Source of the DNA: Burkholderia pyrrocinia
Lineage (GTDB): Bacteria > Pseudomonadota > Gammaproteobacteria > Burkholderiales > Burkholderiaceae
Assembly (NCBI RefSeq): GCF_003330765.1
Contig: NZ_CP024902.1
Coordinates: 2,046,001-2,110,000, forward strand
Direction: 5' to 3'
Length of the DNA stretch: 64,000 bases
Shown here piece after piece: positions 1 through 12,434 of the stretch. Numbering within the stretch: position 1 is the first letter of the stretch; each line of letters opens with the position of its first letter. Below the pieces are notes generated by a model. That model searched no databases and had not been told where the DNA came from. It was given only the letters and a program-made list of their open reading frames with translations. A program made the position numbers and the translations under genes.

Positions 1-9
1 GACGGCCGG

Positions 10-975
10 TTAGCTTCCGGGCGCCGCGCCGTCCAGCAACTGCCGCCAGCCACCGAGAAATCCGATGCCGGGCCCCGGCATCCACAGGCCGCGCTGCGCA
101 GCTTCCAGATGGATCAGCGTCTGGTCCGCACAGAACAGGGCCATCAGCGCATCGTGGTTGTCGCGCATCCAGTCCGGCACAGCATCGCGCCGCGTCGCTG
201 CATAGGCCTGCAGGCCTGCGTCCCATCGCCATGCATCGAATACGAAGCGATCGTCCCTGCCCGCATCGCGCGACAGCGCAAACAGCGCAAAGGCCGCTTC
301 GAGCCACTGCGCGCCCTGCCCGACATCGTCGAAATCGAGCACGCCATTCACCGCGCGGCCTACATACAGCAGGTTGCCCGCGTGATAGTCGCCGTGCAGC
401 CAATGCACCGGCCCCGTCAGCCAGCGTGCCGCGGCGGCGAGATGCGCGCCGATCCGCCGGATCATCGTCTCGTAGTGGCTGCCCCAATCGCCCGGCAAGG
501 ACGGCATCGCGCGCGCCGATACGCGCGCATGGCGCGCCGACAGCCACGCCAGCGGCGCCGATTCGCTTGCGGGTATCGCCTCCAATGCCGCATGCAGATG
601 TGCCAGCGTGCGCATCGCATCGATCGCGCCCGCTTGCGCATCGTCGGGCAGGCCGGGACTGCCGTCGATATGCTCGAACAGATGCAGCCAGCTTCCATTG
701 GGGGCCTGCGCACCGGATTGCGCGTCCACGGTCGGCCTCAGTCGCGGCAGCGCGGGCAGCATCGACGCTGTGCGCGGATGGCCGAGATGGTCGAGTATCG
801 ACGCCTCGCGATGCACCTGCTCGACCGGTTTGCCGGACCACGACACGCGCAGCACCGCGTGGCCCGAATCGCACTCGACGAGATACGTTTTGTTAGTATG
901 GCCCGACGACAGCGCCTGCATGCGCGCCGGCCTGATGTTCCAGTGCCGGTGAAGCCAAGGTTCCAGCGTTTTCAC
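10..975 (-). CDS. Kinase-fold phosphotransferase (APH/choline kinase family)
   Basis: The 321-residue product has the aminoglycoside phosphotransferase/choline kinase fold. The catalytic motif HGDYHAGN is at about residues 194-201 and the metal-binding DFDD at 214-217. This superfamily phosphorylates hydroxyl groups of small molecules with ATP; the substrate here cannot be read from sequence. I chose a GTG start because AGGAG lies just upstream; an in-frame ATG at 1002 would overlap the divergent CmcI-like gene. The gene faces away from that gene and lies on the same strand as the 1647-6531 operon, whose end it follows. It is one of two such kinases within 6 kb, which suggests a shared biosynthetic role. 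The stop is 10 bases from the window edge, so downstream context is unseen. Confidence 0.8.
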   Translation of the reverse strand: MKTLEPWLHRHWNIRPARMQALSSGHTNKTYLVECDSGHAVLRVSWSGKPVEQVHREASILDHLGHPRTASMLPALPRLRPTVDAQSGAQAPNGSWLHLFEHIDGSPGLPDDAQAGAIDAMRTLAHLHAALEAIPASESAPLAWLSARHARVSARAMPSLPGDWGSHYETMIRRIGAHLAAAARWLTGPVHWLHGDYHAGNLLYVGRAVNGVLDFDDVGQGAQWLEAAFALFALSRDAGRDDRFVFDAWRWDAGLQAYAATRRDAVPDWMRDNHDALMALFCADQTLIHLEAAQRGLWMPGPGIGFLGGWRQLLDGAAPGS

Positions 976-1000
976 GTCACTCCTACTCGTTGCATTGACC

Positions 1001-1690
1001 ATGTCAGAGCGTCCTTCGGCCCGCATGCGGGACATCAACATCGAATGGCTGACACGCGCCGCCGAATTCGACCATCTGTTCCAGACGCGCTGGCTCGGCG
1101 AGCGCTTCTTCCATCTGCCCGGCGACATGCTCGCGCTCCAGGAACTGATCTGGCGCGAGCGCCCCGACTGCATCGTGCAGACCGGCATCGCGGCGGGCGG
1201 CGGCGTCGTGTTCTCCGCGTCGATGCTGGAATTGACGGGCGATCGCGGCCGCGTCGTCGCGATCGAACCGCGCCTGCGCGACGAGGTCAGACAGCGCCTG
1301 CAATCGCACCGGCTCGCCCATCGCATGGAACTGATCGAAGGCGAGTCGTGCGCGGCCGATACGCTCGCATCGGTGCGCGCGCAGATTCGCGACGGCGCGC
1401 GCGTGATGGCGATCCTCGATCTCACGCATACCCACGCGCACGTGCTGCGCGAGCTCGAATGCTATGCCGCACTCGTGACGCCCGGCAGCTACGCGATCGT
1501 GATGGATACCATCATGGAGTATCTGCCGGCATCGATGTTCGACGGCAAGCCGTACGGCAAAGGCAACAACCCGGCCACGGCCGTGCGTGAATTTCTCGCC
1601 CGCGACGACCGGTTCGAAGTCGACCAGGACATCGAAGACCGCGTGCTCATGACGCTGTCGCCAGGCGGCTTCCTGAAGCGAGTTCGCTGA
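1001..1690 (+). CDS. CmcI-family protein (cephalosporin hydroxylase/rhamnosyl O-methyltransferase-like)
   Basis: The 229-residue product matches the CmcI family. It has a SAM-fold glycine-rich segment (QTGIAAGGG), a central LDLTHTHAHV segment aligning with the family's conserved LDSNHTHDHV, a VMDT motif, a GNNP loop and a C-terminal GGFLKR. Members were named for cephalosporin 7-hydroxylation but are SAM-fold enzymes, and several are sugar or antibiotic O-methyltransferases. It is the only plus-strand gene in the first cluster. Its 3' end overlaps the convergent glycosyltransferase gene by 44 bp. ATG at 1001 is used; ATG at 1025 is an alternative and no strong ribosome binding site decides between them. 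Methyl transfer onto the cluster's product is the more likely role, as inference. Confidence 0.8.
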   Translation: MSERPSARMRDINIEWLTRAAEFDHLFQTRWLGERFFHLPGDMLALQELIWRERPDCIVQTGIAAGGGVVFSASMLELTGDRGRVVAIEPRLRDEVRQRLQSHRLAHRMELIEGESCAADTLASVRAQIRDGARVMAILDLTHTHAHVLRELECYAALVTPGSYAIVMDTIMEYLPASMFDGKPYGKGNNPATAVREFLARDDRFEVDQDIEDRVLMTLSPGGFLKRVR

Positions 1691-2852
1691 TCAGGCGAGC
1701 GGCCTGCGCCGAGCCGTCGCGCGCGTAGCTCGCGCGGATCCGCGCCGCATGCTCGCGCAACGAACCCGGACACAACAGGCGTTCGAGCGCCTCGGCAATG
1801 TCCGCCACGCCGGCCTGCTGCAGATCCAGCCGGCAACCCGCGCCGGCCCGCTCGACGAAGTGCGCCGAATGGAACTGGTCGTTGCAGAACGGCGACAGCA
1901 GCATCGGCACGCCACAGGCGAGCGACTCCATCACCGAATTCGCGCCGCCGTGGCTGACGAACGCGTGGGTGCGCCGCAGCAGCGCCAGTTGCGGCGCATA
2001 ACGCACCGCGACGACGCGCGCGTCGTCGGCCGGCAGCAGATCCGAATCGATCAGTTCGCCCACCGACAGCACCAGTTGCGCCGACGTCGTGCGCGTCGCA
2101 TCGATGACCTTGGCGAACACATCCGGGTGGTAGTAAAGCTGGCTGCCGAGCGACATGTAGACGAGCGGGCGATCCGCGTCGAGGCGTTCCCACGGGAACG
2201 GCGTCTCGTCGCCGCGCGGGCCGGACGGCAGCGCGGGGCCGACCAGCTCGACACCCGGCGGCGGCGCGCCGACCAGCGCGTCGGTCGTGAACGCGAGCGT
2301 CAGATGCGGCGACAGGATGTCGCAACCGCGAAAGCGCGCGTCGAGCCCGTAGCGCGCAAACAGGCGCGTGCGTTCCGGCGCGAGCCATCGCACCGTGCGC
2401 AGCAGTTCCGAATCGAGATCGTCCGGCAGCACCGGATTCAGCGAATTGGACATCGCGACCCACGGCAGCCCTTCCAGTTCGGCGGCAATCGCCGCCGCAT
2501 AGAGCAGCGGATCGATCACGACGACGTCCGGCTGCCATTCGCGCAGGACCGCGCGGATGCCGTCCACCTGCGCGGGTGCAAGGTCGATCAGCAGCGTGCG
2601 GATCCAGTGCCGCAGCCAGTCGGCGTCGCGAATGTTCGCAGCGAAGCTCGCGCCGCGCGACAGGTCGTGCCGTTCGGGCGTCTCGCGCGGCCCGACGAAT
2701 GCGAAATCGCCGGCGCCATCGAGCTGCTCGCTGATGTCGGCCGGCGCGTAGAACGCAACGTCGCAGCCGGCGGCGCGCAGATGCTGGGCCGGGCCGATGC
2801 AGGGATTGACGTGACCCTTCTCGGGCACCACGCAAAACAGGATGCGTTTCAT
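1647..2852 (-). CDS. GT1-family glycosyltransferase (UDP-glycosyltransferase/MGT type)
   Basis: The 401-residue protein is a GT-B fold enzyme of the UGT/MGT type. The N-terminus MKRILFCVVPEKGHVNP is the usual acceptor-domain start. The C-terminal half carries SHGGANSVMESLACGVP and a nearby FCNDQ, which correspond to the nucleotide-sugar binding motif of this family. Such enzymes add a sugar to small hydrophobic acceptors such as macrolides, flavonoids and lipids. It is the last gene of the five-gene minus-strand set; its start is 7 bases after the stop of the asparagine-synthetase-like gene, so it is almost certainly cotranscribed. The sugar and acceptor are unknown. No membrane segment is evident, so it is probably cytoplasmic. 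Confidence 0.85.
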   Translation of the reverse strand: MKRILFCVVPEKGHVNPCIGPAQHLRAAGCDVAFYAPADISEQLDGAGDFAFVGPRETPERHDLSRGASFAANIRDADWLRHWIRTLLIDLAPAQVDGIRAVLREWQPDVVVIDPLLYAAAIAAELEGLPWVAMSNSLNPVLPDDLDSELLRTVRWLAPERTRLFARYGLDARFRGCDILSPHLTLAFTTDALVGAPPPGVELVGPALPSGPRGDETPFPWERLDADRPLVYMSLGSQLYYHPDVFAKVIDATRTTSAQLVLSVGELIDSDLLPADDARVVAVRYAPQLALLRRTHAFVSHGGANSVMESLACGVPMLLSPFCNDQFHSAHFVERAGAGCRLDLQQAGVADIAEALERLLCPGSLREHAARIRASYARDGSAQAARLISELASGSRLATAS

Positions 2853-2859
2853 CAGGGTC

Positions 2860-3912
2860 TCAGGTTGGGCGATGCGCAGCATCGAGGTGGTCGAGGATCA
2901 GGGTCAGCGTTGCCCACAGTACGCGTTCGGTATCCGCCTGCAGCGTGGGTGCGGCAAGACCGAGCAGGTCGGCTAGCGCGCGCGTACGGTCGCGATCGAG
3001 CAGCGCCGCGAGATCCATCGCCGGTGCGAGCCGCCCGCGCTTGGGGCCCTGCACGAGACGGTCCGGCAGATTCAGGCGCGCACCGAGATCGCGCAGGCAC
3101 TGCTTGTTCGGGTCGGGCGCGATGCTCGTCAGATGCCCGACGACGACGGCGTCGACAAACGGCGGATGCAGGTCGACCGACGCCGCATCGAACAACGCAT
3201 GGCACAACGGCAGATAGTTGGCCGACTGGTCGCGGCGCAGCACCTGATCCGCGCCGTCCCCGGTGATGGCCACTTCGACACCGTCCGCGGCCATCGCCTC
3301 GGCCAGCAGCAGCTTGGCGACCGGATGAAGGTTGAACATCGGTTCCTCGACCGCGTGGGTCGTTCTCGGCAGGGCGGCCACGAAATCGGCTTCGTTCGCA
3401 TGGACGATCTTCACGCTCGCCTGCATCTGCCCGGCCAGTTCGAGCGCCGCGTCGCGTTCGCAGTAGTCCGGCATGTCGGTGGCGAGGATGTAGGACGTCA
3501 CGCGTTGCTGCGCGCCGAGTTCGCGCAGCAACGCGAGCAGCAGCGCCGAATCGAGCCCGCCGCTCAGCGCCAGCGCGACGCGCTTGCCGCTGTCGAGCGC
3601 GCGCTGCAGCGACGCGCGCAGCACGGTCTCCAGATCGGCGCGCTGCGGCCGTTCGGGCGCCGGCTGCACCGCCAGCCCTTGCGGCGAACGGATCAGCGCA
3701 TGGCCGGGCGGCACCGCCAGCACGTCACGCAGCACGGTGCGGCCGAGCAAACGCTCGCCGCTCAGGTAGCCCGCGATGGCCGCCGCGTCCGGCGCGCCGG
3801 ACGGTTGCCCCGACGCGTGCAGTACGGTCCGGATACCGGATGCCGACAGGCCGCTGCGCGGATGGTAGTGCAGGCGATGGAAGCCGAACAGGTCGCGCGT
3901 GCCGACGATCAT
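2860..3912 (-). CDS. Asparagine-synthetase-like amide synthase lacking the glutaminase nucleophile
   Basis: The 350-residue product has the asparagine synthetase ATP-pyrophosphatase domain with the PP-loop SGGLDS at residues 117-122 and GDGAD at 218-222. Upstream of it only a remnant of a class II glutaminase domain remains (RDLFGFHRLHYHP at 6-18 aligns with the end of that domain). AsnB is about 550 residues and needs an N-terminal Cys2; here that Cys and roughly 120 residues are absent. Relatives without a working glutaminase include beta-lactam synthetases and lasso peptide cyclases, which form amides from internal or non-ammonia amines. The ATG overlaps the radical SAM stop (ATGA), indicating translational coupling. 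The exact reaction is unknown. Confidence 0.8.
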   Translation of the reverse strand: MIVGTRDLFGFHRLHYHPRSGLSASGIRTVLHASGQPSGAPDAAAIAGYLSGERLLGRTVLRDVLAVPPGHALIRSPQGLAVQPAPERPQRADLETVLRASLQRALDSGKRVALALSGGLDSALLLALLRELGAQQRVTSYILATDMPDYCERDAALELAGQMQASVKIVHANEADFVAALPRTTHAVEEPMFNLHPVAKLLLAEAMAADGVEVAITGDGADQVLRRDQSANYLPLCHALFDAASVDLHPPFVDAVVVGHLTSIAPDPNKQCLRDLGARLNLPDRLVQGPKRGRLAPAMDLAALLDRDRTRALADLLGLAAPTLQADTERVLWATLTLILDHLDAAHRPT

Positions 3913-4787
3913 GGATAACGAGCCTTCAAGGTGTCCACTTCGATGCGTTTCAGAATGCGATGCGGCGCCACCGGCGCGCTGCCGCCCTGGCAATGCAGGC
4001 ACGCTTCGAGCGGCGCCTCGCGTTGCAGATAGGCCAGCATCGCGTCGAGCATGCCCGCATCGTCGCGCAGCGGCAGGCCGTCGGACCGGAAATCCTTCTC
4101 GCCCTTGTAGAGCGTATGGAAATGCGCCGGACGCGTGCACGTGTAGAACATGCCGTCGCGAATCATATGGCAGCGCTCGCGGATCCAGCAATCGTGATAG
4201 AGGCGCTGCGCTTCATCGCGGTCCGTGCCGGGATGTGCGCGATTCATCGTCGTGAATACGTCCTGCACCTTCCAGTTCAGGCGCACGTCGAAACGCGCGG
4301 CCTGACGCTCGACATACGCGATCAGGTCAGGCAAAAGTGCCGGCTTCGGATAGCGCGAGATCGTCAGCGCATCCACCGCCTGCCAGAACGCGTCCGGCAT
4401 CTCGCCGAGCTTCAGCCCGTTCGTCGTGACGGAGATCACCGGCGCGATGCCCGTCGCGCGCACGCGTTCGATCAGTTCGACGAGGGCCGGATGCAGCAAC
4501 GGTTCGCCACCGACCAGTTTGAACATGCGCGGGCTCAATACCTTCGCGGCCTTGCGCAGATCGGCCTCGATCGATTCCGGGCTCGCATGCCACTCGGGCA
4601 GCAACGGCGACAGCGAGCAGCATTCCGCGCAGGTCAGGTTGCAGTGATCGACGATATGCGCTTCCAGCGAGCGCGTCCTGACGCGCCCGTCTTCGACGCG
4701 GTAATCGCGATCCAGCGGCGGCGGGAACACATGCTGCCGCTCGCCGGACGGCGTCGGATTCGAAATCGGGTTCAGATTCGCATTCAC
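3909..4787 (-). CDS. Radical SAM protein with C-terminal cysteine clusters
   Basis: The 292-residue protein has the radical SAM CxxxCxxC motif (CNLTCAEC, Cys49, Cys53, Cys56), which binds the [4Fe-4S] cluster that cleaves SAM, and a GGEPLLHP motif of the core barrel. Further cysteines in DCWIRERCHMI and CTRP, plus a terminal CLHC, suggest a SPASM or twitch-type auxiliary cluster domain. Such enzymes modify peptides, sugars or aminoglycoside-like molecules. The start is GTG, preceded by AGGAAG at good spacing; a nearby ATG is out of frame. The upstream kinase-fold gene ends one base before it, and the downstream gene overlaps by 4 bp, so this is a coupled operon. The substrate is not identifiable. 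Confidence 0.85.
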   Translation of the reverse strand: MNANLNPISNPTPSGERQHVFPPPLDRDYRVEDGRVRTRSLEAHIVDHCNLTCAECCSLSPLLPEWHASPESIEADLRKAAKVLSPRMFKLVGGEPLLHPALVELIERVRATGIAPVISVTTNGLKLGEMPDAFWQAVDALTISRYPKPALLPDLIAYVERQAARFDVRLNWKVQDVFTTMNRAHPGTDRDEAQRLYHDCWIRERCHMIRDGMFYTCTRPAHFHTLYKGEKDFRSDGLPLRDDAGMLDAMLAYLQREAPLEACLHCQGGSAPVAPHRILKRIEVDTLKARYP

Positions 4788-4788
4788 T

Positions 4789-5781
4789 TCAGCTTCCTGC
4801 TTCCACGCAACGGGAAAAGAAATCGACGAGACGGCCGCGCGCGTCCACCATCGCGGACGCCATCGTCACCGCCCCGTTCAGGTGCGCGGCGAAGCGCGAC
4901 GGATCGTCGAGCCAGCCTTGCACGACCCAGAGCTTCAGCGCGTGCTGCAGACAGGCGGCATCGACCGCCCATGCGATGCGCGCGGGATTCACCGGCCGGC
5001 CCCGTCGATACGCACGCACGAAGGCTTCCGCCAGGTGCGGCGCCTCCAGCGGCAGATGATTCAGGCAGCGCACCAGTTCGTATTCGCGCGGTGCGCCGAT
5101 CGACGCTTCCCAATCGAGGATCAGCGGCGGCAGCGTGCCCGTGAACAGATAGTTGAACTGGTTGTAGTCGTTGTGGATCGGGTGCTGCGGATCGTCGGCG
5201 GGAAACGCTTCGATGCTGCCGGGGTAGTAGCGGTCGAGCATGCGCAGCGCGAGGTCGACGTAGTGATACAGGTGCGCGGCGCTGTCGTTCGAGCGTGCGC
5301 GATTCATTGCGTCGAGCAGGCTGCGGCGTACTTCATCTGCGTCGATCGCAGTCAACCGCGCACGGATCGTGCCGAGCGATGACAGATGCAATTGCTCGAG
5401 GCTCAGGTGCAACGCGGCCAGGCTCGCGCCGAGCGCATCCCATTCGGCCGGCGAAAACGTGTCGTACGTTCTGAACTGCCCGGCTTCCCAGCGCGTCAGC
5501 ATCGCGTGCGAGCTCGGGACCGTCCACAGCAATGCGCCGGCCGTCGTGCGTTTCAGCGTCTGCACACGGAAGCGCGCATCGCCGTGCGTCTCGAAATGCG
5601 CGAGGACGGCGGCTTCCCTGGCCGCGCGCGCATGATGCCCGGGCGCGTAGAGCTTGACCGCTACGCCGCCGTCAGCGGTCGGCAGATGCCACACGCGTTC
5701 GCCGACCCGGCGCGGCGGCCCGCTTCGGCCGAGCGCGTAGGCGTCGCGGATCTCGTCGAAGGTGGCGGCGTGCGGGTTCAT
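4789..5781 (-). CDS. Kinase-fold phosphotransferase (APH family)
   Basis: The 330-residue protein belongs to the aminoglycoside phosphotransferase superfamily. It has the catalytic loop HNDYNQFN near residue 210 and the downstream metal-binding ILDWEAS. The N-terminal lobe shows VAVKLY, the likely ATP-binding lysine strand. It resembles homoserine or choline kinase-like members more than true resistance enzymes, but the substrate cannot be assigned. Its ATG abuts the stop of the FkbM-like gene with no intervening base, and its own stop is one base from the radical SAM start. It is only weakly similar to the other kinase at 10-975, so the two probably act on different hydroxyls. Confidence 0.8.
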   Translation of the reverse strand: MNPHAATFDEIRDAYALGRSGPPRRVGERVWHLPTADGGVAVKLYAPGHHARAAREAAVLAHFETHGDARFRVQTLKRTTAGALLWTVPSSHAMLTRWEAGQFRTYDTFSPAEWDALGASLAALHLSLEQLHLSSLGTIRARLTAIDADEVRRSLLDAMNRARSNDSAAHLYHYVDLALRMLDRYYPGSIEAFPADDPQHPIHNDYNQFNYLFTGTLPPLILDWEASIGAPREYELVRCLNHLPLEAPHLAEAFVRAYRRGRPVNPARIAWAVDAACLQHALKLWVVQGWLDDPSRFAAHLNGAVTMASAMVDARGRLVDFFSRCVEAGS

Positions 5782-6531
5782 TCAGATGTGCTCGGCCGGC
5801 CCGTGCCGATACGGATGGCCGGTAAGGAAGGTGTTGTGCCCGACGTAGCGCAGCTTGTACATCGCCGGCCGGAACAGCACCGAAGGATCGTTGTTCGCGA
5901 TGCCGAGCAGCGGATACAGGTCCTGCCGCACGAAGAACGCGTTGTTGCCCATGTCGTCGCAGCAGACGAGCTCATACCCCTTCTGCCTGCCGAGGTGAAC
6001 GAGCGATTCGAGGCTGGCGCCGTAATAGGTCGATCCGTCCCATTCGTGGTCCGGATTGAAGCACATGACCCAGCGCTCGGGCGGCGTGTAGTACGGGTTG
6101 TATTCGATCACGACGATGCGCGGCCGGAATGCCTGCAGGCCGCGCCACACCCAGTAGTCGTTGCCGTCGATATCGATCGACAGCAGGTCGAAGTCGGCCG
6201 GCGTGTTCGCATCGGCGAGCAACTGGTCCACCGTGTCGGGCTGCACGCGGTCGTGGTGCAGGCGGACGCGATCCGCGCCCGCGTAGTGGGCAGCGAGCTT
6301 GCCGAAGCGGTACGTGCTCCCCTCCACCAGCACGCCGCTCCAATCCTGTTCGCGCAGCAGCCGCGCGGTGTTGCTGTTGCGCAGGCCGTCGCTCGCGCCA
6401 ATGTCGACGCAGAAGCGGTTGGCCGGCGCGATCCGCTCCATCAGTCGCGCCAGGATGCTTTCCTCGGTGCCCTGCGCGTACAGGCTTTGCGCAAGGCCGG
6501 ACAGGTCGAGCGTGGGAGGATGGTCCTGCAT
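5782..6531 (-). CDS. FkbM-like SAM-dependent methyltransferase
   Basis: The 249-residue product shows a Rossmann SAM-binding motif, CVDIGASDG at residues 41-49, an acidic ribose-binding segment VLVEGS, and LLSIDIDGNDYWVW, which fits motif IV of FkbM-type methyltransferases. IVVIEYNP follows. FkbM relatives O-methylate sugars or polyketides and are common in surface polysaccharide clusters. It is the first gene of the minus-strand cluster, with a 13-base palindrome (6573-6585) about 40 bases upstream that may be its operator. No signal peptide is seen. Family assignment is good; the target is unknown. Confidence 0.75.
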   Translation of the reverse strand: MQDHPPTLDLSGLAQSLYAQGTEESILARLMERIAPANRFCVDIGASDGLRNSNTARLLREQDWSGVLVEGSTYRFGKLAAHYAGADRVRLHHDRVQPDTVDQLLADANTPADFDLLSIDIDGNDYWVWRGLQAFRPRIVVIEYNPYYTPPERWVMCFNPDHEWDGSTYYGASLESLVHLGRQKGYELVCCDDMGNNAFFVRQDLYPLLGIANNDPSVLFRPAMYKLRYVGHNTFLTGHPYRHGPAEHI

Positions 6532-6572
6532 CGAGGGGGCGGCTCCGGGTCGGAATGGGATCGGCGTTCGGT

Positions 6573-6585
6573 GGGTAATTTACCC
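6573..6585. promoter_or_regulatory. Palindrome upstream of the five-gene cluster
   Basis: GGGTAATTTACCC consists of 6-base arms (GGGTAA/TTACCC) around one base. It lies 42 bp upstream of the first gene of the cluster, in its only sizeable upstream gap. The position suits an operator, but no matching regulator gene is visible nearby. Confidence 0.35.
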
Positions 6586-6649
6586 GAAGTCGTTTGACGG
6601 AAGGAAGCTGGAATTCGCGACGCCGTCGGGCTTCGCCGGCGTGGACATG

Positions 6650-6683
6650 AAAAAGCCCGCATCGACGAGGCGTCGATGCGGGC
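6650..6683 (-). terminator. Rho-independent terminator after ybiT
   Basis: A perfect 13-bp stem (GCCCGCATCGACG and its complement) with a 3-base loop is followed on the minus strand by TTTTT. It sits about 85 bp past the ybiT stop and separates ybiT from the accessory cluster. Confidence 0.85.
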
Positions 6684-6766
6684 CTGATAGGTTTCCGGCG
6701 GCCTCGCTCCATGCGCCCGGCTTCATGCTGTCTAGCCGGGGCACGCGAACGAAAGCGTCAGGACAA

Positions 6767-8359
6767 TTACTCCTGCCCCTGGCTCGTCAGGAATTCCTCG
6801 TAATTACCGCCGAAGTCGAACAGCGTGCCGTCCGTCTTCACTTCGATGATCCGGTTGGCCAGCCCGCTCACGAATTCGCGGTCGTGCGAAACAAAGATCA
6901 GCGTGCCTTCGAATTGCTCGAGCGCGATCTGCAGCGACTCGATCGATTCCATGTCCATGTGGTTGGTCGGCTCGTCCATCAGCAGCACGTTGTGGCGGCC
7001 GAGCATCAGCTTGCCCCAGATCATGCGGCCCTTCTCGCCGCCCGACAGCACCTTCACCGACTTCCTGATGTCGTCCGACGAGAACAGCAGGCGGCCGAGC
7101 GTGCCGCGCACCATCGTCTCGTCGTCGCCGTCCTTGCGGTACTGGTCGATCCAGTCCATCAGCGTGATGTCGTTCGGGAACTCCTCGTACGTGTCCTGCG
7201 GCATGTAGCCGACATTCGCGTTCTCGGACCACTTCACCGTACCGTGTTCGAGCGCGAGCGCGCCGAGCAGCGAACGCAGCAGCGTCGTCTTGCCTGCACC
7301 GTTCTCACCGATGATCGCGATACGCTCGCCCGGCTGCACCGACAGGTTGAAGTTCTGGAAGATCGTGCGCTCGTACTTCTTCGTGATGTCTTCAGCGACC
7401 ACCGCGACGTTGTGCAGCTTCTTCTCGAACTCGAAGCGGATGAACGGGTTCTGGCGCGACGACGGCTTGAATTCCTCGATCTTGATCTTGTCGATCTGCT
7501 TCGCACGGCTCGTTGCCTGGCGGGCCTTCGACTTGTTCGCCGAGAAACGGCGCACGAAGTCCTGCAGTTCGGCGACCCGCTCCTTCGCACGCGTATTCGC
7601 CGCGGCCTGGCGCTCGCGCGCCTGCGCCGATGCGAGCATGTAGTCGTCGTAGGTGCCCGGCCAAACCTTCAGCGTGCCGAAGTCCATGTCGGCCATGTGC
7701 GTGCACACCGAGTTCAGGAAGTGACGATCGTGCGAGATGATGATCATCGTCGAGTTGTACTCGTTGAGCGTTTGCTCGAGCCAACGAATCGAGTTGATAT
7801 CGAGGTTGTTGGTCGGTTCGTCGAGCAGCAGCACGTCAGGCTTCGAGAACAGCGCCTGCGCGAGCAGCACGCGCAGCTTCCAGCCCGGCGCGACGTCGCT
7901 CATCGTGCCGCGGTGGAACTTCTCCTCGATGCCGATGCCGAGCAGCAGCGCGCCCGCGCGCGCCTCGGCGTCGTAGCCGCCGTATTCGGCGAACTTGCCC
8001 TCGAGCTCGGCCGCGTGCATGTAGTCGTCGTCGGTGGCTTCCGGGTTCGCGTAGATCGCGTCACGCTCGGTCATCGCGGCCCACATCTCGGTGTGACCCA
8101 TCATCACGACGTCGAGCACGCGCACGTCTTCGTACGCGAACTGGTCCTGGCGCAGCTTGCCGAGACGCACGTTCGGCTCCAGCGCGACGTTGCCGGCGCT
8201 CGGCTCGAGGTCGCTGCCGAGGATCTTCATGAACGTCGACTTGCCACAACCGTTCGCGCCGATCAGACCATAGCGGTTGCCCTCGCCGAATTTGACCGAG
8301 ATATTCTCGAACAGGGGCTTTGGCCCGAATTGCATCGTGATGTTGGCAGTAGAAAGCAC
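6767..8359 (-). CDS. ybiT: ABC-F ATPase, YbiT subfamily
   Basis: The 530-residue protein has two ABC ATPase domains and no membrane domain, as expected for ABC-F translation factors that act at the ribosomal E site. Walker A motifs are GANGCGKS (residues 34-41) and GENGAGKT in the second half, with [11 protein letters not shown] and [11 protein letters not shown]alker B segments. The opening [17 protein letters not shown] matches E. coli YbiT rather than EttA or Uup, and the length equals YbiT. The chosen GTG start aligns with the YbiT N-terminus; open sequence runs further upstream but lacks homology. The precise role is uncertain. It is monocistronic between two unrelated genes. Confidence 0.9.
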
Positions 8360-8491
8360 GGCTGGTCCCGTTAAGAGATAAATCGACGGAAAACCGTGTA
8401 TTTTAGCAGGTGTCGGAGAAACTGCCGACCACACCGTTCCGGCCCCGCCAGTCTGCCCGCCACGCCGGGCACCTGACGGTGCCCTCGCGCA

Positions 8492-10780
8492 TCACTTGCC
8501 GGCCTTCGCGGCCGCCTTCTGCGCCGCCTTTGCGTTTATCTGCCCGAACAGTTCCGAGCACGGCACATCGCGGTTGTTGCTCGGTGCGATCAGCGGGATC
8601 AACGCCGCGAGCGGGTTGATCAGCCCGAGCCCGACCATCGCGCCGGCACGCAGCGCGAGCGCGCCCGCATCGACGCCGACGTTCGGGTTCTTGAACGTGC
8701 CCTTCGCGTACAGCGGCGAGCGCAGCGAGAAGACCCGGAAGCCCTTCGTATGTGGATGGATCTTCAGGTCGAGCGTTTCGTCGCGCAGGCTGATCGGGCC
8801 GTCGACGTTGATCAGCGCATCGTCCGTATCGAGCGCGAATACCTTCGGGTCGAGAATCCCGTTGGTCGCGACGAAGTCGATCGCCGCGCAATTGATCTTC
8901 ACGTCGTTGTTGCCGAACAGCTTCTCGTAGACGACGTTCGCGACGTTCAGCCCCGCCGCTTCCATCAGCAGGCGGCTGATGCGGCCGTCCGTCACGAGCG
9001 CCTTCACTTCGCCGGTCGACGTCGCGGCCAGCGCGGCCGGCGAGTTGCCGGTCGCCGACAGCGACGCGTCGCCGTTGATCTCGCCAAGCGCCGACTGCAT
9101 GACCTTCTGCGTCGGGAACAGTTGCTTGAGCTTCAGGTGCCGCGCGGCCATCGTGAAGCGGCCCTTCAGCGGCGCGCCGCTGCCGTCGAGATGCGCGGTC
9201 GTCGCGAGCGTACCGCCCGCGACGCCGAACTGCAGCGGTTCGAGCGACAGCACGCCATCCTGCATCACGATGTGCGTGTACAGGTTGGTGATCGGCAGGT
9301 TCGCGCTCTTGACCAGCTTGCGGCCCGTGAACTTGACGTCCGCGTCGAGCGCGCGCCAGCGATCGGTACGGAAGGTCTCGACCGGCAGCACGCGGCCCGA
9401 CGGCTGGTGCGTCGTGTCGCCGCGCTTGGCCTTGCTCGCGGCCGTATCCGCGCCGATCACCGGTGCGAGATCGGAGAACTGCAGCAGGTTCGACACCAGT
9501 TCGCCCGACAGCTTCGGCCGCGGCTCGCGCTGCGCGTAGGTCAGCGTGCCGCCGAGATCGCTGCTGCCGACGCGACCATTGAAGTTCTCGTAGCGGAACG
9601 TGCTCGCGTGCTGCTTGAAGTTGCCGATCAGCCGCCCTTCGGTCGCGTAAGGCGGCGTGTCGGGCAGCGTGATGCCGGTGAGCTGGTAAAGATGCGACAT
9701 CGACGTGCCCTGCAGCCACAGCCGCAGGTCGATCGCCGCGAGATGCATCGGATCGGTCAGCGTGCCGACGATCGCGAGCCGCGTGTCGCCGGCCTTCACG
9801 TCGGCCTGCAGCGGGAACGGCCGCGACGCATCCTGGATCGCCAGCACGCCGCCGAGCTTGCCGGTACCGCTGATCGGCACGTTCTTGTAGCGGCCGTCGA
9901 CCTTCAGCCCGAACGCATAGGTCGGGCCGGACGGCTTCGCGGGCGCCGCGGCGCCGCTTGCGCCAGACGCGGCCGATGCAGAAGAAGCGGACGAAGCAGA
10001 AGAAGCCGAAGAAGCCGAAGCAACGGAAGATGCAGCCGAAGCACCCGCGGACGACGCCGCACTCGCAGCCTGCGCCGCGGAAGCACTCGACGCGGCCTCC
10101 GCGTTGGCCTTCGCGCTCAGTTGCGCGGCGCCGTGCTTGCCGACACGCTGCGCCGACGCCGCACGCGACGTCTGTTCCTGCTCCTTCAGCACGTCGCCGA
10201 GCGGGATCGGCTGCCCGAGCGTATCGATCGCGACAGTCAGGTCGGCCTTCGTGATCGCGTCGTGATACGTGACGGTGCCCTTCGCGAAGCCGAAGCTGTC
10301 GAGCCGTACCTTCCATGGCGACGGCTGCGACGATTGCTTGAACTGGAACGTCCACGTGTTGCTGCCGTCGGCGAGCCGCTCGAGGTCGACGGCAGGATTC
10401 ACGACGTCGATCGACGGGATGACGATCTCGTGCGCGAGCAGCGGCAGGATCGCGAGATCGAAGTGCGCGGCATCGAGCGTGACGAATTTGGGCGCCTTTG
10501 CCCAGTCGGGATTGCCGATCTCGAGCTGCGTGGCCGAAAAGCTCGGCCAGGGCACCCATGCGCGCCAGCCGGTCTCGCCGTCGGGGCGGCGCCAACCGAC
10601 CTTCAGGTCGCCGTTGATCGCGAACGGGCGGCCGAGTGCGGCACTCACCTGTTCGTTGACCCACGGTTTCGCGTGGTTCCAGTCGAACGTGAAGATAAAA
10701 ACGCCGGCCGCCGCGATGAGCACCGCGACGATACCGACGACCCATGCAGCCGATTTGCCGATGGCTCGGGTTAGCGTCAT
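8492..10780 (-). CDS. AsmA family protein
   Basis: The 762-residue protein has an N-terminal membrane anchor (about residues 12-32, VVGIVAVLIAAAGVFIF) and then a long AsmA-type region that faces the periplasm. AsmA-like proteins are bridge-like lipid transport proteins implicated in outer-membrane lipid homeostasis. The C-terminal AsmA-2 region is recognisable in the stretch ending with SELFGQINAKAAQKAAAK. At about residues 220-290 there is an Ala/Ser low-complexity insertion that AsmA relatives do not need. Start ATG 10780 has GGAA upstream. It is read away from the fetAB operon. Confidence 0.85.
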   Translation of the reverse strand: MTLTRAIGKSAAWVVGIVAVLIAAAGVFIFTFDWNHAKPWVNEQVSAALGRPFAINGDLKVGWRRPDGETGWRAWVPWPSFSATQLEIGNPDWAKAPKFVTLDAAHFDLAILPLLAHEIVIPSIDVVNPAVDLERLADGSNTWTFQFKQSSQPSPWKVRLDSFGFAKGTVTYHDAITKADLTVAIDTLGQPIPLGDVLKEQEQTSRAASAQRVGKHGAAQLSAKANAEAASSASAAQAASAASSAGASAASSVASASSASSASSASSASAASGASGAAAPAKPSGPTYAFGLKVDGRYKNVPISGTGKLGGVLAIQDASRPFPLQADVKAGDTRLAIVGTLTDPMHLAAIDLRLWLQGTSMSHLYQLTGITLPDTPPYATEGRLIGNFKQHASTFRYENFNGRVGSSDLGGTLTYAQREPRPKLSGELVSNLLQFSDLAPVIGADTAASKAKRGDTTHQPSGRVLPVETFRTDRWRALDADVKFTGRKLVKSANLPITNLYTHIVMQDGVLSLEPLQFGVAGGTLATTAHLDGSGAPLKGRFTMAARHLKLKQLFPTQKVMQSALGEINGDASLSATGNSPAALAATSTGEVKALVTDGRISRLLMEAAGLNVANVVYEKLFGNNDVKINCAAIDFVATNGILDPKVFALDTDDALINVDGPISLRDETLDLKIHPHTKGFRVFSLRSPLYAKGTFKNPNVGVDAGALALRAGAMVGLGLINPLAALIPLIAPSNNRDVPCSELFGQINAKAAQKAAAKAGK
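9950..10085. repeat. Degenerate trinucleotide repeat encoding an Ala/Ser linker
   Basis: The plus strand shows repeated GAAGCCGAAGAAG-like units; on the coding strand these read as Ser and Ala codons, giving runs such as ASSASSASSAS within the AsmA-family gene. The reading frame would survive gain or loss of 3-base units. Confidence 0.6.
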
Positions 10781-10932
10781 GGCGGTTCCGTTGTTGTTCT
10801 GAAATGTTGCCGCACCATGCCGGGCCGCGTGCGTGGACGAACGGCGCACGACACCCGCGGCTTTTCAATCGGTATTATGACGCACGCCATGGTGACGTTT
10901 CGACGCCGTTAACGCTTTTTTTCATTTGTGAC

Positions 10933-11634
10933 ATGACAGCCCCCACCGGCCTCATCGATGCGCAGCGCATCACGCGGCGCGACGCCAGCAGCGGCAAGAC
11001 CCTGCTCGCCCCGACCGATTTCAGCCTCGCAGCGGGATCGCGAATTGCTATCACGGGACCGTCCGGGTCGGGCAAGAGCGTGCTGCTGCGCGCGCTCGCG
11101 CTGCTCGATCCGCTCGACGGCGGCCATATCCTGTGGCGCGGCAGCCGGATCCGCCGCAGCGCGATCCCGCGCTACCGACGCAGCGTCGCATACGTGCGCC
11201 AGCGCCCCGCGCAGATGGACGGCACCGTCGAATCGCAATTGCGCTATCCGTATTCGCTCGCGATCTATCGCGATGCCGCGTTCGATCGCGCGCGCGCCGA
11301 AGCGCTCGCCGCGCAGGCCGGCCGCGGCCCCGACTTTCTCGACAAGCGCGCGAGCGACCTGTCGGGCGGCGAAGCGCAGATCGCCGCGCTGCTGCGCGTA
11401 CTGCAGCTCGATCCCGACGTGCTGCTGCTCGACGAACCGACGTCCGCGCTCGATCCCGAATCGGTGCGCGCGATCGAGGCGCTCGTCGGTGCGTGGTTCG
11501 ACGCGGCGCCCGACGCACGCGCGTACATGTGGATCTCGCACGATCCGGCCCAGGCCGCGCGGATCGGCACGATGCGGCTCGTCATGCAGGCCGGCGTGCT
11601 GCACGGGACCAACCCGATGGAGGCTGCACAATGA
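10933..11634 (+). CDS. fetA: ABC transporter ATPase FetA (YbbL)
   Basis: The 233-residue ATPase has Walker A GPSGSGKS, the signature LSGGEAQ and Walker B LLLDEPTSALDPES. Its partner is the adjacent membrane protein of the FetB family, which it overlaps by ATGA. In E. coli FetAB is linked to iron export and resistance to peroxide stress. The gene is divergent from the AsmA-family gene, and both promoters must lie in the roughly 150-bp gap. The pair identity is what fixes this assignment, because the ATPase alone could serve many transporters. Confidence 0.85.
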   Translation: MTAPTGLIDAQRITRRDASSGKTLLAPTDFSLAAGSRIAITGPSGSGKSVLLRALALLDPLDGGHILWRGSRIRRSAIPRYRRSVAYVRQRPAQMDGTVESQLRYPYSLAIYRDAAFDRARAEALAAQAGRGPDFLDKRASDLSGGEAQIAALLRVLQLDPDVLLLDEPTSALDPESVRAIEALVGAWFDAAPDARAYMWISHDPAQAARIGTMRLVMQAGVLHGTNPMEAAQ

Positions 11635-12434
11635 GCCCGGCACTGCAGGACCTGAGCCTCGTCGACGTCGGCATCGCCGCCGCGCTCGTCGCCGTCAACG
11701 GCGCGCTATCGGCGGCACTGTCGCTCGGCCTCGGTCGCAAGCTCGCGCTCGCAGCGGTGCGCACCGTCGTGCAGTTGCTCGCGATCGGCTACGTGCTCGG
11801 CTGGGTGTTCGGCCATCCGCATTGGTACGTCGTGTTGCCGCTCACAGCGCTGATGACGTTGATCGCCGGTTTCGCCGGCGCGGGACGCGGCAAGCACACG
11901 TACCGCGGCCAGCGCATCGACAGCGTCGCGTCGATCTGGTTCAGCAGCTGGTTCGTCGCGGCGGTCGGCCTGTTCGTCGTGATCCGCATCCATCCGTGGT
12001 ACGCGCCGCAATATGCGATCCCGATCCTCGGGATGATTCTCGGCAATACGCTGACAGGCGTATCGCTCGGCGTCGAGCGGATGATGGAAGAACTCACGGC
12101 ACGCCGCGACCGCGTCGAGACCGCACTCGCACTGGGCGCGACGCGCTGGGAAGCCGCGCAGGACGCCGCGCGCCAGGCCGTGCGCGCGGGCATGCTGCCG
12201 ACGCTGAACCAGATGGCCGTCGTCGGCGTCGTCAGCCTGCCGGGGATGATGACGGGCCAGGTGCTGGCGGGCCAGTCGCCGCTGCAGGCCGTGCGCTACC
12301 AGATCGTGATCATGTTCCTGATCGCCGCGGCCTCCGCGCTCGGCACCGTCGGCGCGGTGCTGATGACTTATCGCCGACTGTTCTCGGCCGATCACCGCTT
12401 TCTCGCGTCGCGGCTCGAAGAGCGCGCGCACTGA
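11631..12434 (+). CDS. fetB: Iron export permease FetB (YbbM/UPF0014 family)
   Basis: The 267-residue protein has about seven hydrophobic segments and the family motif region GMILGNTLTGVSLG followed by ERMMEEL. The conserved ETALALGAT, GMLPTLNQM and GVVSLPGMMTGQ segments are typical of FetB/YbbM permeases. It forms the inner-membrane channel of the FetAB exporter. Its ATG overlaps the fetA stop, so the two subunits are translationally coupled. No regulator lies beside the pair. Confidence 0.88.
   Translation: MSPALQDLSLVDVGIAAALVAVNGALSAALSLGLGRKLALAAVRTVVQLLAIGYVLGWVFGHPHWYVVLPLTALMTLIAGFAGAGRGKHTYRGQRIDSVASIWFSSWFVAAVGLFVVIRIHPWYAPQYAIPILGMILGNTLTGVSLGVERMMEELTARRDRVETALALGATRWEAAQDAARQAVRAGMLPTLNQMAVVGVVSLPGMMTGQVLAGQSPLQAVRYQIVIMFLIAAASALGTVGAVLMTYRRLFSADHRFLASRLEERAH

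Follow-up and report, generated by a model that had tools for sequence, protein, structure and literature searches.

A conserved eight-gene cassette of Burkholderia and some relatives that may encode a cytosolic route to an aminoglycoside-like amino-sugar amide

Introduction

The tailoring of butirosin and neomycin, to which the radical S-adenosylmethionine (SAM) enzyme BtrN belongs, combines such an enzyme with a glycosyltransferase (GT) and a deacetylase, GT4 and PIG-L being the textbook pair. SpeY belongs to the spectinomycin pathway, while HygY is reportedly a radical SAM epimerase of aminoglycosides that uses a cysteine as hydrogen donor. Mycothiol and bacillithiol are made with a glycosyltransferase, a de-N-acetylase and ATP-dependent formation of an amide bond, and rhizobial NodB is a chitooligosaccharide deacetylase with NodA, NodC and a GT2 enzyme as partners. 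Here, we describe a block of eight genes, referred to in the following as the cassette, that crosses the left end of a 64,000-nucleotide stretch of DNA (the window; G000:C1:2046001-2110000). The genome measures 8.0 Mb, and its nearest relatives at this locus are Burkholderia.

In NeoN, a further radical SAM epimerase of aminoglycosides, the conserved non-ligand residue Cys249 could return a hydrogen atom (PMC10991966). The Staphylococcus aureus genes menE-menC-MW1733-ytkD-MW1731 form a noncontiguous operon (PMC7154746). We give about an even chance to the view that the genes described here are an accessory cassette encoding a cytosolic pathway to an aminoglycoside-like amide of an amino sugar (or aminocyclitol).

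Results

Eight genes conserved as a unit

Gene families were assigned by Pfam and NCBIfam profile searches, which confirmed the families that an earlier sequence-only reading of this DNA had proposed for seven genes (Table 1). That reading missed the eighth gene, for a NodB-type deacetylase left of the window, and it treated the plus-strand CmcI gene and the leftmost kinase gene as flanks; both are present, as members of the unit. Its range of -4 to 7 bp for the gaps in the minus-strand run agrees with the values found: 0, 1, -4 and, with the inner GT1 start, +7 (otherwise -23).

The cassette was compared across 31 loci, comprising 27 obtained by searching public genomes for relatives of the radical SAM protein, the locus of the window (L030) and L064-L066, which came from three other genomes. 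Gene presence was scored by tblastn, because the simple gene caller at times picked antisense open reading frames (ORFs; L010_5, L019_5, L023_5). Twenty-nine of the 31 loci held all eight genes complete and with one order and orientation, so the grouping is not due to chance. The exceptions were L016, where the contig ends within the cassette, and L029, from Paraliomyxa, which is taken up in the Discussion. The ratio of nonsynonymous to synonymous substitution rates (dN/dS) was 0.08-0.35 in all 32 comparisons (eight genes, four partner loci), and pairwise distances calculated for each of the eight proteins correlated between proteins at 0.91-0.97 (29 loci), which fits co-inheritance. These results support the eight genes as one co-inherited tailoring unit. 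The sequence-only reading had suggested such a neighbourhood comparison and would have been given up had the genes never co-occurred; this does not apply, since 29 of the 31 loci carry the complete set. Its further proposal, that the genes together may build or decorate one product, is partly supported.

Table 1. Features of the cassette and its right-hand side (positions in the window unless a locus is named)
Feature	Position	Strand	Evidence or remark
NodB-type deacetylase, 191 residues	L030:12427-13002; window 1..2 = final two bases	+	575 bases left of window
APH1, small-molecule kinase, APH/homoserine-kinase-like fold	10..1002	-	APH 74.9 bits
CmcI/rhamnosyl O-methyltransferase-like methyltransferase	1001..1690 (alternative start TTG 995)	+	RMNT_CmcI 210.6 bits
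GT1, macrolide-type (MGT) glycosyltransferase	1647..2882 (inner ATG 2852)	-	UDPGT 73 bits
Asn-synthase-like amide synthase, glutaminase core absent	2860..3912	-	Asn_synthase 88.5 bits
Twitch radical SAM enzyme, SpeY/BtrN-like	3909..4787	-	Pfam, alignment, SpeY fold match
APH2, second APH-fold kinase	4789..5781	-	APH 51.6 bits
FkbM-family methyltransferase	5782..6531	-	Methyltransf_21 33.3 bits (cut-off 22.7)
CATG common to start codons of APH1 (-) and CmcI (+)	1000..1003	.	Sequence
Terminator-like 15-pair hairpin, following the ABC-F gene and lying upstream of FkbM	6653..6685	-	Pattern scan
ABC-F ATPase, right neighbour, separate from cassette	6767-8434		NF011646 993 bits (cut-off 762)

The radical SAM gene, the only one scored in these counts, was found in 31 of 65 Burkholderia genomes and in 24 of 299 sampled genomes of the family. 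The 27 loci from public genomes include some of B. cepacia and B. cenocepacia. The Burkholderia loci that were opened at full length all carried the rest of the block, apart from the contig-cut L016. In a sample of 398 genomes of the phylum, the window's own genome was the sole match (best six candidates per genome scored), and among 296 genomes of the order of the metagenome-assembled genome that holds L027, that genome was the sole match (best eight scored). Six non-carrier Burkholderia genomes were inspected for the empty site. DUF2501 lies beside the ABC-F gene in L075 and L077, with the cassette absent; L079 and L080 have a nitronate monooxygenase gene near ABC-F, and L076 and L078 have a different left flank and are uninformative. 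When 14 neighbourhoods were clustered, the surroundings of the cassette differed between genera, and the non-cassette genes that recurred did so within related species or as a few generic-looking, mostly unannotated protein clusters.

The radical SAM enzyme

The radical SAM protein contains the CxxxCxxC motif, a four-cysteine auxiliary site and the SpeY fold. It is specifically of the SpeY/BtrN-like twitch type, and this assignment suggests that the product is an amino sugar or aminocyclitol. The structure model was built on an alignment of 48 relatives, chosen from the 120 listed of 544 matches; a single-sequence prediction gave a predicted local distance difference test (pLDDT) score of 37.5. 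Cys206 and Cys57 were invariant in all 49 aligned sequences, and the corresponding SpeY residues are Ser and Ala, respectively. Cys206 may be the hydrogen donor. A relative at L062:10400-11299 keeps Cys206 and has Asp at position 57. The cassette protein did not classify as a viperin-type (anti-phage) radical SAM enzyme.

The other enzymes

Motif conservation in the remaining proteins was scored on 13 aligned loci. NodB (Polysacc_deac_1, 78.8 bits) has the CE4 metal motifs FDD and HxxxH, and the metal-binding residues D8, D9, H58 and H62 were invariant in all 13. The protein begins at the first motif and no signal peptide was seen, so it should act in the cytosol. GT1 matched TIGR01426 at 128.3 bits (cut-off 260) and lay below every curated subfamily cut-off. 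The Asn-synthase-like protein aligned to TIGR01536 from profile position 136, the first 135 positions being absent, and no glutaminase (GATase) Pfam match was found in it or among its relatives listed (120 of 198). The motifs SGGLDS and GDGADQ of the pyrophosphate (PPi) loop synthetase are present in 13 of 13, and the enzyme should couple an activated carboxylate to an amine that is not supplied from glutamine.

APH1 has invariant HGDxHxGN and DFDD motifs and APH2 invariant HNDYNQ.N and D-W-E motifs across the 13 loci, which we take to be the catalytic kinase motifs. FkbM matched TIGR01444 below its cut-off. The CmcI-like protein matched the CmcI structure 2bm8 (expect value, E, 3.5e-4). Solved relatives were weak for APH1 (E 0.0086) and the Asn-synthase (E 0.001) and general for GT1; none was found for APH2 up to E 1 or for FkbM up to E 0.1.

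A related set in myxobacteria

In the phylum of L029, the radical SAM protein had matches in six of 282 genomes, L029 included. Partner genes accompany the match in L060, L061 and L063 but not in L062; L059, the fifth further match, lay outside the comparison. Identities in the three loci with partners were 35-42% for the radical SAM protein, 41-50% for GT1 and 24-36% for a distant Asn-synthase-like protein. PIG-L stands in the place of NodB, and no APH gene was matched in the three loci, an ASKHA-like protein being present. That proteins of unrelated fold take these places is in keeping with genuine deacetylation and phosphorylation steps. L060 and L061 additionally carry AsnB and a GT2-like gene. 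The ASKHA-like proteins (L060:15169-16005, L061:5276-6070 and L063:2860-3792) seem to have their motifs in reversed order, with DVGQT following a YLTGG-type motif, an arrangement like that of a circularly permuted kinase. Their C-terminal half is weakly glucokinase-like, and the N-terminal part weakly resembles the C-terminal ends of YegD and PilM.

Strand layout and expression

In all 29 complete loci, FkbM, APH2, radical SAM, Asn-synthase, GT1 and APH1 lie on one strand and CmcI and NodB on the opposite one. The GT1 and CmcI genes share their last 44 bases, tail to tail, in 28 of these loci and 47 in L018, from Paraburkholderia bannensis. With automatic start choice, CmcI and APH1 have a two-base overlap at their starts in 24 of the 29. 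Where this overlap holds, a promoter for APH1 between the two genes is impossible, so the APH1 message begins inside CmcI or reads through from GT1; the CmcI message likewise begins inside APH1 or reads through it. No terminator-like site was predicted between GT1 and APH1 by the pattern scan. Compared with shuffled sequences, the scan gave no excess of promoters (1 vs. 0.8) or terminators (3 vs. 3.9), and the hairpin at 6653..6685, one such pattern match, may mark the right border of the unit.

Flanking genes

Left of NodB lie an uncharacterized 244-residue protein, a DUF2501 protein, a 128-residue protein and an aldehyde dehydrogenase, followed farther left by a nitronate-monooxygenase-like gene, OmpW and ABC-transporter genes. 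The 244-residue protein (L030:11610-12344), which has no Pfam match and a hydrophobic segment near residue 60, adjoins the cassette in many, not all, Burkholderia loci. Pfam matches of six larger ORFs in the next 20 kb to the left were an AcrB-type pump, a CLC channel, MerR and sigma-54 regulators, a metallo-beta-lactamase-fold protein and PF03601. Pfam searches of the 10 + 6 proteins of this leftward extension found no scaffold gene and no gene for a nonribosomal peptide synthetase (NRPS), polyketide synthase (PKS) or precursor. The sequence-only reading had also seen no NRPS, PKS or precursor; the scaffold gene that it placed possibly beyond the left edge did not appear among the proteins scanned there, and the extension yielded NodB.

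On the right, a 785-residue ORF follows ABC-F and is presumably AsmA-like. By ORF length alone, with no hidden Markov model annotation, no called ORF in the remaining window exceeded 1283 codons, and Rfam gave no match at gathering score in window positions 1-12000.

A full-length, glutamine-dependent AsnB gene was seen beside the cassette of Trinickia soli at L025:15533-17353 and inside the cassette at L027:11868-13646, as well as in L060 and L061; an extra amidation step is possible. In the window's genome, the AsnB search gave one 43% partial relative, on contig 2, so the gene in L025 and L027 is regarded as optional. A NUDIX hydrolase gene lies directly upstream of FkbM in Achromobacter sp. 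HZ34 (L022:7729-8139) and Bordetella sp. LUAb4 (L026:7806-8219).

Discussion

The genes, their families and motifs, their conservation as a unit and the fold match are direct results, from which we infer the substrates, the order of the steps and the product. GT1 would move an N-acetylated sugar, most simply from uridine diphosphate N-acetylglucosamine (UDP-GlcNAc), onto a small acceptor from general metabolism, and NodB would carry out the N-deacetylation intracellularly. An amide would be formed by the glutaminase-less Asn-synthase, which would activate a carboxylate with ATP and join it to an amine, in the simplest case the one exposed by NodB. The radical SAM enzyme, of the twitch type, would epimerize (or oxidize) one carbinol carbon, FkbM and CmcI would add methyl groups, and the two APH kinases would phosphorylate intermediates or the product. 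By analogy, the cassette may work like an aminoglycoside tailoring route; the glycosyltransferase and N-deacetylase of aminoglycoside clusters have counterparts in GT1 and NodB, and in GT1 and PIG-L in L060, L061 and L063. We do not class it as an aminoglycoside or aminocyclitol cluster, because no scaffold gene was found.

Several observations weigh against this pathway. The search for a gene that would supply a cyclitol or sugar scaffold, which covered the eight genes and the scanned flanking proteins, found none. The donor sugar of GT1 is a guess, since the protein falls below every curated subfamily cut-off. In its putative substrate pocket, the radical SAM enzyme differs from SpeY at W172, K173 and Q175, and its L062 relative has no cassette partner in 20 kb. 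In L029 there are FkbM, APH2, radical SAM and CmcI only, and tblastn found no GT1, Asn-synthase, NodB or APH1. The PPi loop is degenerate in the Asn-synthase-like proteins of L060 (GGGVDA) and L061 (GGGLDA), and the scores behind the assignment of the ASKHA-like protein as a kinase are weak (21.3 and 15.8 bits, cut-off 250; E 0.0025). Shared descent alone could give the correlated protein distances.

The cassette might instead make an intracellular cofactor or protectant that is retained in the cell, by the logic of mycothiol and bacillithiol, whose enzyme functions come in the same order of glycosyltransferase, deacetylase and ATP-dependent amide ligase. There is no exporter among the eight and no recurrent transporter across genera (14 neighbourhoods, mostly unannotated), and the PIG-L of L061 weakly matches the bacillithiol deacetylase model (18 bits, cut-off 182.5). 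We nevertheless consider a cofactor unlikely. Pfam and NCBIfam gave no MshC- or BshC-like ligase among the eight (the rest of the genome was not sought), the patchy presence in 31 of 65 Burkholderia genomes is unlike that of a general cofactor, and two methyltransferases and a radical SAM enzyme would be superfluous.

Proteins of the FkbM, CmcI-like, Asn-synthase-like and APH-like families also occur in glycan clusters, and the Asn-synthase of Bordetella ansorpii is named 'O-antigen biosynthesis aminotransferase' at NCBI. Modification of a surface glycan, such as a lipopolysaccharide, capsule or exopolysaccharide unit, nevertheless seems improbable: the eight include no flippase, polymerase, GT2/GT4 or membrane protein, the deacetylase looks cytosolic, and the surroundings differ by genus.

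A ribosomally synthesized and post-translationally modified peptide (RiPP) as the product, with the radical SAM, FkbM and Asn-synthase-like proteins as its tailoring enzymes, has little likelihood. Such families do occur in RiPP pathways, and the Asn-synthase has below-cut-off matches to lasso and macrolactam cyclases (36.7 vs. 300 and 26.7 vs. 525 bits). No precursor peptide gene was found near the enzymes when ORFs of 20-120 amino acids were examined within 1.5 kb to either side in 13 loci. An island in which GT1 and the two APH kinases inactivate incoming antibiotics is very improbable. In its favour, GT1 matches macrolide-inactivating glycosyltransferases (89.7 bits, cut-off 700) and APH1 matches APH(3') (17.7 bits, cut-off 205), but all such matches are far under cut-off, and simple inactivation would not account for radical SAM, deacetylase and amide synthase genes kept in a fixed order.

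More tentatively, and less likely than not, the amino-sugar amide pathway could represent a new family of aminoglycoside-like amino-sugar amides, made in Burkholderia and relatives and, by parallel enzymes, in myxobacteria, from a primary-metabolite acceptor and with no scaffold gene. It would be set apart by a SpeY-like epimerase with a Cys donor, a glutaminase-less Asn-synthase as ligase, and two interleaved runs of genes with mutually antisense messages. Like the sequence-only reading, which recognized no described pathway, our literature search found none with this gene set, family-sharing papers being judged by title; this is weak evidence of novelty, because most subscription papers were outside the search.

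With the radical SAM gene in nearly half of the Burkholderia genomes (31 of 65), well-studied bacteria probably make a common unknown metabolite. The block also provides a compact system in which to test how amides of amino sugars can be made without dedicated scaffold genes, and Cys206, which is Ser in SpeY, offers a natural comparison of what determines epimerase and dehydrogenase activity in twitch radical SAM enzymes.

Among known systems, the cassette enzyme shares motifs and fold with SpeY, a twitch radical SAM dehydrogenase (PDB 7wzv, 7wzx, 7x0b), but has two extra invariant cysteines and other putative pocket residues, and the spectinomycin scaffold genes were not seen near the cassette. 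The conserved non-ligand cysteine of HygY and NeoN invites comparison with Cys206, which might likewise return hydrogen. Unlike the butirosin route of BtrN, the cassette has GT1 rather than GT4 and NodB rather than PIG-L, forms its amide through an Asn-synthase-like enzyme, and showed no 2-deoxystreptamine genes. With mycothiol and bacillithiol biosynthesis it shares a glycosyltransferase, a de-N-acetylase and an ATP-dependent amide-bond enzyme, to which it adds methyltransferases, kinases and a radical SAM enzyme. Its deacetylase resembles rhizobial NodB in having CE4 motifs and no signal peptide, but lacks a NodA or NodC partner and has GT1 in place of GT2. The amide synthase has the PPi-loop synthetase domain of class B asparagine synthetase but is without the N-terminal glutaminase, which carries a catalytic Cys in that class. 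In gene layout, the cassette appears to resemble a noncontiguous operon: as in the S. aureus example (PMC7154746), an opposite-strand gene lies within a co-functional run. The cassette differs from it in having two interleaved runs, NodB and CmcI on one strand and FkbM to GT1 with APH1 on the other, with overlapping coding ends.

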